Both the position numbers and the translations under genes were made by a program. Source: Pilimelia terevasa (GTDB lineage: Bacteria; Actinomycetota; Actinomycetes; Mycobacteriales; Micromonosporaceae). Taken from it: 64,000 bases of DNA. Position 1 is the stretch's first letter. Each line of letters starts with the position of its first letter. The stretch covers positions 124,001 through 188,000 of the forward strand of contig NZ_BMQC01000001.1 in the NCBI RefSeq assembly GCF_014647915.1, given 5' to 3'. The notes under the pieces were generated by a model, which worked only from the letters and a program-made list of their open reading frames with translations, was not told the origin of the DNA and did no database searches. Shown piece after piece: positions 17,581 through 28,161 of the stretch.

Positions 17581-18747
17581 CTACGGCTGGCGGTTCCAGG
17601 TCCAGGCGTAGTTCTCGTCCTCGACGGCCAGCGCCGGCTCGCACAGGTCCAGGGGGCGGAACGTGTCGACCATCACGGCCAGCTCGTCGAAGTACTCGGC
17701 GCCGATCGACCGCTCGGCCGCACCCGGCTGCGGGCCGTGGGTGAAGCCGGACGGGTGCAGCGAGATCGACCCCTGCCCGATGCCCGAGCCGCGCCGGGCC
17801 TCGTAGTTGCCGCCGGTGTAGAACAGCACCTCGTCGGAGTCGACGTTGTGGTGGTTGTACGGCACCGGGATCGCCAGCGGGTGGTAGTCGACCTTGCGCG
17901 GGACGAACGAGCAGATGACGAAGTTCGGCCCCTGGAAGGTCTGGTGGGCCGGCGGCGGCTGGTGGATGCGGCCGGTGATCGGCTCGTAGTCGTGGATCGA
18001 GAAGATCCAGGGGTACTGCATCCCGTCCCAGCCCACGACGTCGAACGGGTGCCGGGCGTAGGTGTGCCGGGTCCAGCCGCGGCGGTGCTGGACGAGCACG
18101 TCCACGTCCGCGGCGTCCACGTGGATCAGCTCGTGCGGGCCGCGGATGTCGCGCTCGCAGTACGGGGCGTGCTCCAGGAACTGGCCGCGCACCGACAGGA
18201 ACCGCTTCGGCGGCCCGATGTGCCCGCTGGCCTCGATGACGAACAGGCGCACCGGCGCGTCGCCGGTGGGCACCACCCGGAAGATGACCGAAGTGGGGAT
18301 GAGGACGTAGTCGCCGGCCACGGCGTCGAGGACGCCGAAGGTGGTCTCGATCCGGGCGGCGCCGGCCTCGACGTACAGGCACTCGTCGCCGACGGCGTTG
18401 CGGTACAGCGGCGAGGGGGTGTCGGCCACGACGTAGGAGAGCCGGACGTCGTCGTTGGCCAGCAGGTGCTGCCGGCCGAGGACCGCGTCGGCGCCCGTGG
18501 TGTCCAGCTTGTGGGTGACGAGGTGACGCGGCTTGAGCGGCCGGTTCGGCTGGCGGCTCCAGGCCGGCGGGGTGTACGCCTCGGCGGCGACGATGGCCGT
18601 GGGGGCGTGGCGGTGGTACAGCAGGGACGAGTCGGAGGAGAAGCCCTCCTGGCCCATCAGCTCCTCGGCGTACAGGCCGCCGTCGGGCCTGCGGAACTGC
18701 GTGTGCCGCTTGCGCGGCACCTCGCCGAGGCTGCGGTAGTACGGCAT
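17581..18747 (-). CDS. hmgA: Homogentisate 1,2-dioxygenase
   Basis: A 388-residue cupin-fold iron enzyme opening the ring of homogentisate to maleylacetoacetate in tyrosine/phenylalanine breakdown. The C-terminal half carries the iron-site region: NHHNVDSDEVLFY (His and Glu ligands) and HPSGFTHGPQPG (last His), plus the family stretch VPRKVDYHP. Length is normal for bacterial HmgA. It is divergent from an unknown gene that precedes fumarylacetoacetase; the shared upstream gap contains a five-copy direct repeat that may be a regulator array. Confidence 0.95.
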   Translation of the reverse strand: MPYYRSLGEVPRKRHTQFRRPDGGLYAEELMGQEGFSSDSSLLYHRHAPTAIVAAEAYTPPAWSRQPNRPLKPRHLVTHKLDTTGADAVLGRQHLLANDDVRLSYVVADTPSPLYRNAVGDECLYVEAGAARIETTFGVLDAVAGDYVLIPTSVIFRVVPTGDAPVRLFVIEASGHIGPPKRFLSVRGQFLEHAPYCERDIRGPHELIHVDAADVDVLVQHRRGWTRHTYARHPFDVVGWDGMQYPWIFSIHDYEPITGRIHQPPPAHQTFQGPNFVICSFVPRKVDYHPLAIPVPYNHHNVDSDEVLFYTGGNYEARRGSGIGQGSISLHPSGFTHGPQPGAAERSIGAEYFDELAVMVDTFRPLDLCEPALAVEDENYAWTWNRQP

Positions 18748-18794
18748 GGTCGGCCTCCCGAGCGGTCCGTGGCGTGGGACGGGAGAGCGGCCGC

Positions 18795-18877
18795 GATCCG
18801 ACGACCCGAGGATCCAACGACCGGACGGCCCGGCGATCCGACGACCGGCGATCCGGTGACCCGATGATCTGGTGACC
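18795..18877. repeat. Five direct repeats GATCCGACGACC in the hmgA upstream gap
   Basis: Copies start at 18795, 18811, 18835, 18850 and 18866: GATCCGACGACC, GATCCAACGACC, GATCCGACGACC, GATCCGGTGACC and GATCTGGTGACC. Spacing is 15-16 nt except one 24-nt step. They sit 48-130 bp upstream of hmgA and 60-145 bp upstream of the divergent gene. This is an iteron-like arrangement suited to cooperative regulator binding to one DNA face every 1.5 turns. Confidence 0.8.
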
Positions 18878-18900
18878 TGCTGTCCGGTAATCGGACGTTG

Positions 18901-18938
18901 TTGTCCGCTCTCTGTAGCGTCCACTAGGTTGTGTGCTG
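18901..18938 (+). promoter_or_regulatory. Predicted leaderless promoter
   Basis: A -35-like TTGTCC (18901-18906) and a -10 TAGGTT (18925-18930) are 18 bp apart. The predicted start site seven bases after the -10 coincides with the GTG start codon at 18938. No Shine-Dalgarno is present, which fits a leaderless transcript, common in actinobacteria. Confidence 0.6.
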
Positions 18939-19834
18939 TGTCAACGCAGCAGTCCGCGCCCGCCGCCGCGCCGGGCCCCGCCGGGACCGCGCCGGCCGTC
19001 CCCGCCCTGTTCGCCGGGCTCGTCGACGACGCCGCGGTCTTCCCGCCCGGCAGCGCACCGCTGCCCGAGGCCGTGTCGGCCCACCGCACCCACCGCGCCG
19101 CCTGGTACGCCCCGATGGTCGGCCCGCTCCTGCTGCCCGCCTCCGCCCTGGCGGCCGCCGCGGACCTGCTCGGCGACGGGGAGCGGATGACCGCCGGGCT
19201 GATCGGCGACACCGGCGTCGCCGGCCTCCCGGCCGCCCTGGCGAAAGCCGACCCGCGCCTGGAGATCCGGCAGGCCGAGGTCGCGGTGGCCAAGCGCGGC
19301 GAGGACCCGCAGCCCGGCCTCGCGGCACTGGTCGGGCACTACCGGTCCCGCCCCCAGCTACGCGGCTATGCCGAGATTCCGCTGGCCGCCGGGCTGCTGG
19401 GCGCCCTCGACGCGGTGGCGCAGGCCCGCGCCGACGGGGTGTCCGTCGCGCCCAAGTTCCGCACCGGCGGGCTGGCCGCCGAGCTGTTCCCCACGCCCGT
19501 GGAGCTGGCCGCCGTGATCTGCGCCTGCCGGGACCGGGAGCTGCCGTTCAAGCTCACCGCGGGGCTGCACCGGGCCGTCCGGTACACGGACGCCGGTACC
19601 GGCTTCACCCACCACGGCTTCCTCAACGTCGTCGTGGCGGCGCTGGCCGCGGCGCGCGACGCCGAGGTCGACGAGACCGCCGCGCTGCTCGCCGCGACCG
19701 ACCCGGAGCCGCTGGTCGCCGCCGCCGCCGACCGGCTGACCGACGCGCGCCCGCTGTGGGTCGGGTACGGCTCGTGCAGCGTGGCCGAGCCACTGGAGGA
19801 CCTGGCCCGGCTCGGACTCATCCAGATCCCCTGA
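18938..19834 (+). CDS. Conserved protein of unknown function between hmgA and fumarylacetoacetase
   Basis: A 298-residue soluble, alanine-rich protein. I do not recognise the family. Visible features are a FAGLVDDAAVFPPGS motif near the start, APKFRTGG in the middle and LPFKLTAGLHRA followed by GFLNVVVA, an order reminiscent of alpha/beta-barrel strands with conserved Lys and His. It has no signal peptide or membrane segment. The next gene, fumarylacetoacetase, follows after 25 bp, so it is in the homogentisate operon. Position suggests a role between maleylacetoacetate and fumarate or in regulation, which is only inference. Confidence 0.7.
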   Translation: MSTQQSAPAAAPGPAGTAPAVPALFAGLVDDAAVFPPGSAPLPEAVSAHRTHRAAWYAPMVGPLLLPASALAAAADLLGDGERMTAGLIGDTGVAGLPAALAKADPRLEIRQAEVAVAKRGEDPQPGLAALVGHYRSRPQLRGYAEIPLAAGLLGALDAVAQARADGVSVAPKFRTGGLAAELFPTPVELAAVICACRDRELPFKLTAGLHRAVRYTDAGTGFTHHGFLNVVVAALAAARDAEVDETAALLAATDPEPLVAAAADRLTDARPLWVGYGSCSVAEPLEDLARLGLIQIP

Positions 19835-19859
19835 CCACCGCCCGCGCCGAGGAGTGCAC

Positions 19860-21044
19860 GTGCTTGACCTGACCGGACCGTTCGGCATCCACCACCTGCC
19901 CTACGGGGTGTTCACCTACGGCGGGGTCGCGCCGCGCGTCGGCGTCCGCGTCGGCGACGCGGTGCTCGACCTCGGCGGCGCCGAGGCCGCCGGCCTGATC
20001 GACGCCGGTGGCGCGTTCGGGCAGCCGACGCTCAACGCGCACCTCGCGCAGGGCCGGGCGGCCTGGACCGCGGCCCGGGACCGGATCACCACGCTGCTGC
20101 GCGACGAGTCCGCCACGCTCGACGGCCTGGTGTACCCGCTGACCGACGTCACGCTGCTGCTGCCCTTCGCCGTCGGCGACTACGTCGACTTCTACTCCTC
20201 GGAGCACCACGCCGCCAACGTCGGCGCGCTGTTCCGCCCGGGTTCGCCGCCGCTGCTGCCGAACTGGAAGCACCTGCCGATCGGGTACCACGGCCGCGCC
20301 GGCACGGTCGTCGTCTCCGGCACCGACGTCGTGCGCCCCTGCGGGCAGCGCAAGGCGCCCACGGCCGACGTCCCGACCTACGGCCCCACGGGCCGGCTGG
20401 ACATCGAGGCGGAGGTCGGGTTCGTCGTCGGCGCCGGCACCGCCCTCGGCGACCGGGTCGGCGTCGCCGACTTCGCCGACCACGTGTTCGGGGTGGTGCT
20501 GGTCAACGACTGGTCGGCCCGGGACATCCAGGCGTGGGAGTACCAGCCGCTCGGCCCGTTCCTCGGCAAGAGCTTCGCCACCTCGGTGAGCGCCTGGGTG
20601 ACGCCCCTGGCGGCGCTGGAGGCCGCCTGGGTGCCGGCGCCCGCGCAGGACCCGGCCGTGCTGCCGTACCTGTCCGGCGGCGGGCACCGGGGCCTGGACC
20701 TGGCGCTGGAGGTGGAGTGGAACGGCACGGTCGTCTCGCGGCCGCCGTTCGCGCCGATGTACTGGACGCCGGCCCAGCAGCTCGCGCACCTGACCGTCAA
20801 CGGCGCCTCGGTGCGCCCCGGCGACCTGTACGCCTCGGGCACCGTCTCCGGCCCCGAGCGGGACCAGACGGGCTCCTTCCTGGAGCTGACCTGGGGCGGC
20901 GCGGAGCCGGTGACGGTCGGCGACGCCAAGCGCACCTTCCTGGAGGACGGCGACACGGTCACCGTGCGCGCCACCGCCCCGGGCCGCGACGGCGCCGTGC
21001 TGGCCCTGGGGGAGGTCACCGCCACCGTCCTGCCGTCCCGCTGA
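19860..21044 (+). CDS. fahA: Fumarylacetoacetase
   Basis: A 394-residue FAH that hydrolyses fumarylacetoacetate to fumarate and acetoacetate. Family landmarks: DYVDFYSSEHHAANVG (catalytic His and metal Asp), LDIEAEVGFVVG (metal Glu pair), NDWSARDIQAWEY (metal Asp) and GKSFATS. The N-terminal SH3-like domain is present. Two in-frame GTG codons occur; the second (19860) is chosen because GAGGAG lies five bases before it. A strong hairpin follows the stop. Confidence 0.95.
   Translation: MLDLTGPFGIHHLPYGVFTYGGVAPRVGVRVGDAVLDLGGAEAAGLIDAGGAFGQPTLNAHLAQGRAAWTAARDRITTLLRDESATLDGLVYPLTDVTLLLPFAVGDYVDFYSSEHHAANVGALFRPGSPPLLPNWKHLPIGYHGRAGTVVVSGTDVVRPCGQRKAPTADVPTYGPTGRLDIEAEVGFVVGAGTALGDRVGVADFADHVFGVVLVNDWSARDIQAWEYQPLGPFLGKSFATSVSAWVTPLAALEAAWVPAPAQDPAVLPYLSGGGHRGLDLALEVEWNGTVVSRPPFAPMYWTPAQQLAHLTVNGASVRPGDLYASGTVSGPERDQTGSFLELTWGGAEPVTVGDAKRTFLEDGDTVTVRATAPGRDGAVLALGEVTATVLPSR

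Positions 21045-26248: not shown

Positions 26249-28161
<1,913 letters not shown>

Follow-up and report, generated by a model that had tools for sequence, protein, structure and literature searches.

The spacer between an hmgA-like gene and its divergent neighbour contains a degenerate octanucleotide array, which is probably a neutral, lineage-specific 8-bp expansion, control of the locus most likely lying in an adjacent three-box element, to which a predicted HmgR-like protein, P0004, would bind. The array, its absence from the relatives examined, the conservation of the operator and its co-occurrence with P0004 can be read from the sequences themselves. We propose that a single lineage acquired a degenerate 8-bp repeat, or expanded one in place, in the spacer that separates the operator from the ribosome-binding site of hmgA, presumably by replication slippage or by a repeat-spreading process. 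The spacer appears tolerant of changes in length and sequence, and the array would most likely have no regulatory role beyond its length. A neutral expansion would explain why the period is that of an octamer, why the units have decayed and why relatives lack the array, and would also fit the parallel case in another genome, which is described below.

Structure and setting of the array

In the window, the 64,000-nucleotide stretch of DNA that was analysed, the hmgA-like gene (17581..18747, minus strand) encodes 388 amino acids, carries the Pfam domains HgmA_N and HgmA_C above cut-off, and is matched by its relatives from residue 1. Its product (P0001) scores 47.8 bits against the NCBIfam hmgA equivalog, below the cut-off of 510.75, and we class the window's HmgA as a divergent type. 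The divergent gene (18938..19834, plus strand, 298 amino acids) is the first of a predicted fah operon and is followed by the fumarylacetoacetase gene fahA (19854..21044, plus strand; Pfam FAA_hydrolase and FAA_hydrolase_N). No family was found for the product of the divergent gene in Pfam and NCBIfam; the gene itself stands divergently to hmgA in each of the 80 named relatives. These relatives, the best 80 of the 432 relatives found and thus a set biased toward close ones, belong to other genera than the source genome, and the family, Micromonosporaceae, is taken from the named nearest HmgA relatives. In one genome (G001:C1:6193731-6194905) hmgA was found as two pieces.

The array (18795..18881, no strand assigned) consists of 11 head-to-tail units with the consensus GAYCCGRY, one of them of 7 bp and none skipped. 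Parsed as octamers, it reads GATCCGAC GACCCGAG GATCCAAC GACCGGAC GGCCCGGC GATCCGAC, directly followed by GACCGGC (the 7-bp unit), GATCCGGT GACCCGAT GATCTGGT GACCTGCT, and the last unit ends immediately before the first base of the conserved palindrome. Adjacent units are nowhere identical. The preliminary description had seen five copies of the 12-mer GATCCGACGACC, recurring every 15-16 bp with one skipped position. The five copies are indeed present, at 18795, 18811, 18835, 18850 and 18866 (with 0, 1, 0, 2 and 3 mismatches, respectively), but the real steps are 16, 24, 15 and 16 bp, and the basic unit is 8 bp. The 24-bp gap corresponds to one and a half 16-bp steps, and is therefore not a skipped 16-bp position, while the 16-bp step itself results from the third base of the units, at which T and C tend to alternate unit by unit.

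The array is real and non-random. Self-identity over 18787-18881 peaks at lag 8 (0.62), lag 16 (0.59) and lag 24 (0.55). Neither the lag-8 nor the lag-16 value was attained by any of 5000 dinucleotide shuffles, which means that the 8-bp period exceeds chance. Measured in 88 bp, the lag-8 identity of the array (0.64) is above anything in a 464-kb sample of its genome, where the maximum is 0.59; measured in 56 bp, the array is exceeded by one coding stretch (strong ORF) and equalled by another stretch that lies in no strong ORF. Tandem repeats in general are frequent in this genome: the Tandem Repeats Finder (TRF) score of the array is 70, in a background (the window and twenty 20-kb stretches of the genome) of 200 merged arrays of various periods with a score of at least 50, 69 of them with at least 70. 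The 12-mer, at up to three mismatches, is not enriched in the window (157 matches vs a shuffle mean of 150.6), and it is the clustering of its copies, not their frequency, that is unusual.

The array was also considered as coding sequence, and this was rejected. A minus-strand frame is open through the array and a plus-strand frame ends inside it. The ORF filter placed the array inside a strong minus-strand ORF, which we read as the hmgA frame staying open upstream, since the start residue is the same in relatives and a unit of 8 bp changes the reading frame.

Distribution of octamer arrays in the family

Octanucleotide tandem repeats are a general kind of repeat in bacterial intergenic DNA. 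The array resembles them in its degenerate, lineage-specific, head-to-tail 8-bp units, and GC-rich arrays of this kind occur in other genomes of the family; it differs from them in its position, within a short regulatory spacer adjoining a conserved operator. The array itself is probably ordinary.

Conservation in relatives had been named as a check of the preliminary description, and its outcome was negative: the unit and spacing of the array are missing from all 80 named orthologous hmgA promoters. Octamer periodicity is likewise absent from these loci (lag-8 identity of at most 0.39 in 64 bp, vs 0.64 here), and the distance from the operator to the hmgA start is 17-58 bp in all 80, vs 134 bp here. 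Among the BLAST matches listed for 354 genomes of the family, many fall at query positions 139-211, which comprise the operator and promoter, and the alignments of this conserved part start at query 139-143, which is the palindrome. Eleven of the matches listed fall on other parts of the query, chiefly the array. When these places were taken with roughly 5 kb of flanking sequence in either direction, or as far as a contig end, none of them matched hmgA, the divergent gene or fahA. Plasmid records gave two partial matches, under features named homogentisate 1,2-dioxygenase and fahA.

Within this genome, a 32-bp pattern made up of four units has three matches at up to three mismatches, all at the hmgA locus, and the idea that the array is dispersed through the genome was rejected on this result. 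A looser 16-bp pattern, also at up to three mismatches, gave 440 and 433 matches, where its reversed control gave 182 and 198. Four places outside the array match the 16-bp pattern with one mismatch; their lag-8 identity is 0.42-0.56 in 48 bp, vs 0.67 here, and none of them is a long octamer array. Across the family, the four-unit pattern occurs (at up to three mismatches) in 72 of the 354 genomes and its reversed control in about 41, as counted by eye, and the notion of a special unit was dropped on this comparison. When 20 four-unit loci were taken, one per genome, 18 had no strong ORF over the array by the codon-position GC filter, and the 1.6-3 kb of sequence taken at each locus contained no hmgA, no divergent gene and no fahA. 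Similar GC-rich octamer arrays in the family thus sit at unrelated, mostly non-coding places.

A different octamer array is found in the hmgA spacer of genome G012, of genus g13 (L019:2678-2766), with words such as TTGTYCAA or YTGTYCAA and their reverse complements. In three congeners of G012 the spacer has no 8-bp periodicity and the operator offsets are 76, 76 and 57 bp; the operator is perfect in all four species of the genus. The G012 word pattern has 75 and 72 matches in G012 (147 in total), but eight other genomes, among them the three congeners, have no match, and its reversed control has none at all. The hmgA spacer has thus taken in or grown extra sequence on at least two occasions, apparently independently, with the operator and promoter left intact.

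The G012 element is built of 8-bp words, is roughly 50-90 bp long as judged by eye, and is dispersed through the genome, the array in the hmgA spacer being one of its copies. The 20 element loci taken (L262-L281) represent 16 distinct places, 15 of which are outside a strong ORF, and four G012 loci tried in Rfam (L019 among them) gave no match at the gathering threshold. That two genera have an octamer array in this one spacer might point to something beyond chance. One may imagine a class of Micromonosporaceae intergenic elements that are composed of 8-bp words particular to each genome and that spread or grow, in which case G012 would hold an amplified example and the window a single-copy one, both in the same spacer next to the hmgA operator; we regard such a class as unlikely.

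Alternative readings of the array

The preliminary description suggested that the array is an iteron-like platform, bound cooperatively by a regulator of homogentisate catabolism. The tandem copies are non-random and lie in a promoter region, as such a platform would, but the orthologous promoters examined have no array, the three matches of the 32-bp pattern in this genome are all at the hmgA locus, and GC-rich octamer arrays are found at unrelated places in the family. In addition, neither 8 nor 16 bp makes a whole number of helical turns, and the copies do not lie on one face of the helix. Iteron arrays at plasmid and phage origins are direct repeats within a short region, which is also true of this array, whereas the array is not conserved, is not helically phased and is situated between catabolic genes. 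With the unit and spacing in none of the 80 orthologous promoters and no helical phasing, cooperative binding is not supported, and we consider it very unlikely.

A second alternative is that the array consists of expanded, degenerate IclR half-sites, which titrate or tune the regulator at the neighbouring operator. The minus-strand heptamer GTCCGGT (18820) is identical to the left half of the operator of this genome, and two copies of GTCGGAT are also present. The array has three half-site-like matches above 40% of the maximum score, vs 0.11 per background window, and none of about 2000 background windows equals this (0.1% of the windows do so at a cut-off of 30%, and 6% at 50%). The unit GATCCGAC matches six of the seven half-site bases in some rotation and strand, which is equalled or bettered by 376 of 20000 random octamers, i.e. 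about 2%. However, the matches repeat a few units (two of the three are copies of one unit) and are hence not independent, the array has no full palindrome within three mismatches, and its half-sites are direct, not inverted. We give this reading little credence. Of the points that the neutral reading leaves unsettled, the likeness of the units to the half-site is the chief one.

It is similarly improbable that the array varies strongly in copy number, as a hypervariable repeat that shifts the promoter spacing and thereby switches expression. A tandem repeat does sit between the operator and the gene, and the spacer length differs between species, but adjacent units are never identical, for which reason slippage should be rare. 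A role of the array as RNA, in a structured hmgA leader or attenuator, where it would lie if transcription starts near the operator, is extremely improbable, since its fold z-scores (0.65 for the leader and 0.39 for the plus strand) are no better than those of shuffles, the array is not conserved, and Rfam gave no match at the gathering threshold in the 3.2-kb array locus (L127), nor at any of the five loci tried, L127 and L019 included.

The conserved putative operator and a candidate IclR-family regulator

If the array is a neutral expansion, control most likely lies in the three-box element beside it, formed by the palindrome (18882-18896) and an external half-site (18901-18907). P0004, an HmgR-like member of the IclR family, would bind this element, repressing or activating both divergent transcripts, and would respond to an intermediate of the pathway.

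The palindrome, GTCCGGTAATCGGAC (18882..18896, no strand assigned), which the preliminary description leaves out, is a predicted IclR-family operator with the consensus GTCCGATAATCGGAC in relatives, and agrees with the PobR-type IclR motif given in PMC8222616. It fits the type TGTYCRY-W3-RYGRACA, the relatives having GTCCGATNATCGGAC, from which the window departs by one mismatch. At all 80 named loci the operator is present within two mismatches (70 perfect, nine with one mismatch and one with two). The consensus of 55 distinct relatives, one of which (L031) is probably a chance match away from the operator place, is GTCCGATaATCGGACgctgTTGTCCGcTccttGTAGCGTCCcnTA, and the window reads GTCCGGTAATCGGACGTTGTTGTCCGCTCTCTGTAGCGTCCACTA from 18882. 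The third box, the external direct half-site TTGTCCG (18901..18907, plus strand), stands at a constant distance, with each of its bases conserved in 80% or more of the 55 distinct sequences, and overlaps a predicted -35 at 18901. A predicted -10, TAGGTT (18925..18930, plus strand), ends 7 bp before the GTG start at 18938, and a similar hexamer is seen by eye at about the same place in relatives. The spacing and conservation of these elements suggest a leaderless transcript, and the divergent gene is probably leaderless. A scan for the sigma-70 consensus returned no promoter, and the single terminator-like match was the palindrome itself.

No other site within one mismatch of the palindrome was found in this genome. 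Elsewhere in the window it has three matches, all with three mismatches and at chance level, and none at the hppD-like gene (26824-28161), to which an Lrp/AsnC-family gene (26249-26779) is divergent. The earlier suggestion that the two ends of the pathway are controlled differently is plausible in this respect, with an operator at hmgA, none within three mismatches at hppD and the Lrp/AsnC gene there, but not by way of the array: the hmgA and hppD ends may differ in control through the palindrome.

A search of this genome for the IclR ligand domain found two genes, one of which is P0004 (G000:C7:5575-6222). P0004 has the IclR helix-turn-helix (HTH), with the ligand domain matched in part, and is assigned to the IclR family only, because its score against TIGR02431 (NCBIfam PcaR/PcaU/PobR), 42.5 bits, is below the cut-off of 284.75. 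The gene adjoins one that was recognised by eye as cysS.

Of the 23 relatives from the same family that have hmgA, 15 carry an orthologue of P0004 (53-75% identity), and these same 15 have the palindrome before hmgA, counting G003, whose site has two mismatches that keep the palindrome. The other eight have no P0004 match above 38% identity among the matches listed, and no site within three mismatches before hmgA. Over the 24 genomes with hmgA, the source genome included, 16 have both regulator and operator and eight have neither (Fisher 1.4e-6, with shared ancestry ignored); the count leaves out G005, which is 69% complete and in which no hmgA was found. In G019 and G021 the orthologue was seen in pieces, and in G016 (G016:C40:11475-12098) it has one internal TAG stop, with the operator intact. 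The distance between the orthologue and hmgA is about 13-26 kb in eight relatives and about 60 kb in G020, and in the other six the orthologue is on a separate contig. In two genomes from other families of the order, G030 and G035, the genes stand in the order IclR, fahA, hmgA, with 1.3-1.4 kb from IclR to hmgA and a fahA that is 63 and 55% identical, respectively, to that of the window; in G038 the P0004 orthologue is 2.2 kb from hmgA. A weaker palindrome is present in G035 (three mismatches) and G038 (two mismatches), and half-sites only were seen in G030. From this distribution we predict that P0004 is an HmgR-like regulator acting on the hmgA operator. Among the titles and abstract openings covered, no paper on this system was recognised, and none turned up that combines Micromonospora with homogentisate and IclR.

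According to PMC8222616, IclR-family three-box sites carry an external direct half-site, as in PobR, PcaU and the HmgR of P. putida, and the motif of Acinetobacter PobR is TTGTCCGATSATCGGACAR. The element described here, as distinct from the array, is like these operators in combining a palindrome of the TGTCCGAT-N-ATCGGACA type with an external direct half-site and in having a target in aromatic catabolism, and P0004 has the IclR HTH and part of the ligand domain. Unlike in the systems of that paper, the regulator gene is encoded elsewhere in the genome and P0004 falls under the NCBIfam PcaR/PcaU/PobR cut-off; the operator sequence is nearer to the PobR motif given there than to the HmgR motif.

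The useful result is the prediction that many Micromonosporaceae have an operator and an IclR-family regulator for their homogentisate catabolism, both of which are open to a direct test by binding and deletion. It also carries a caution, in that a conspicuous repeat may distract from the short conserved site that matters. Second sites of the GTCCGATSATCGGAA type were observed in three genera (G009:C3:170448, G017:C34:189656 and G019:C232:895), and possibly mark another member of the same regulon.
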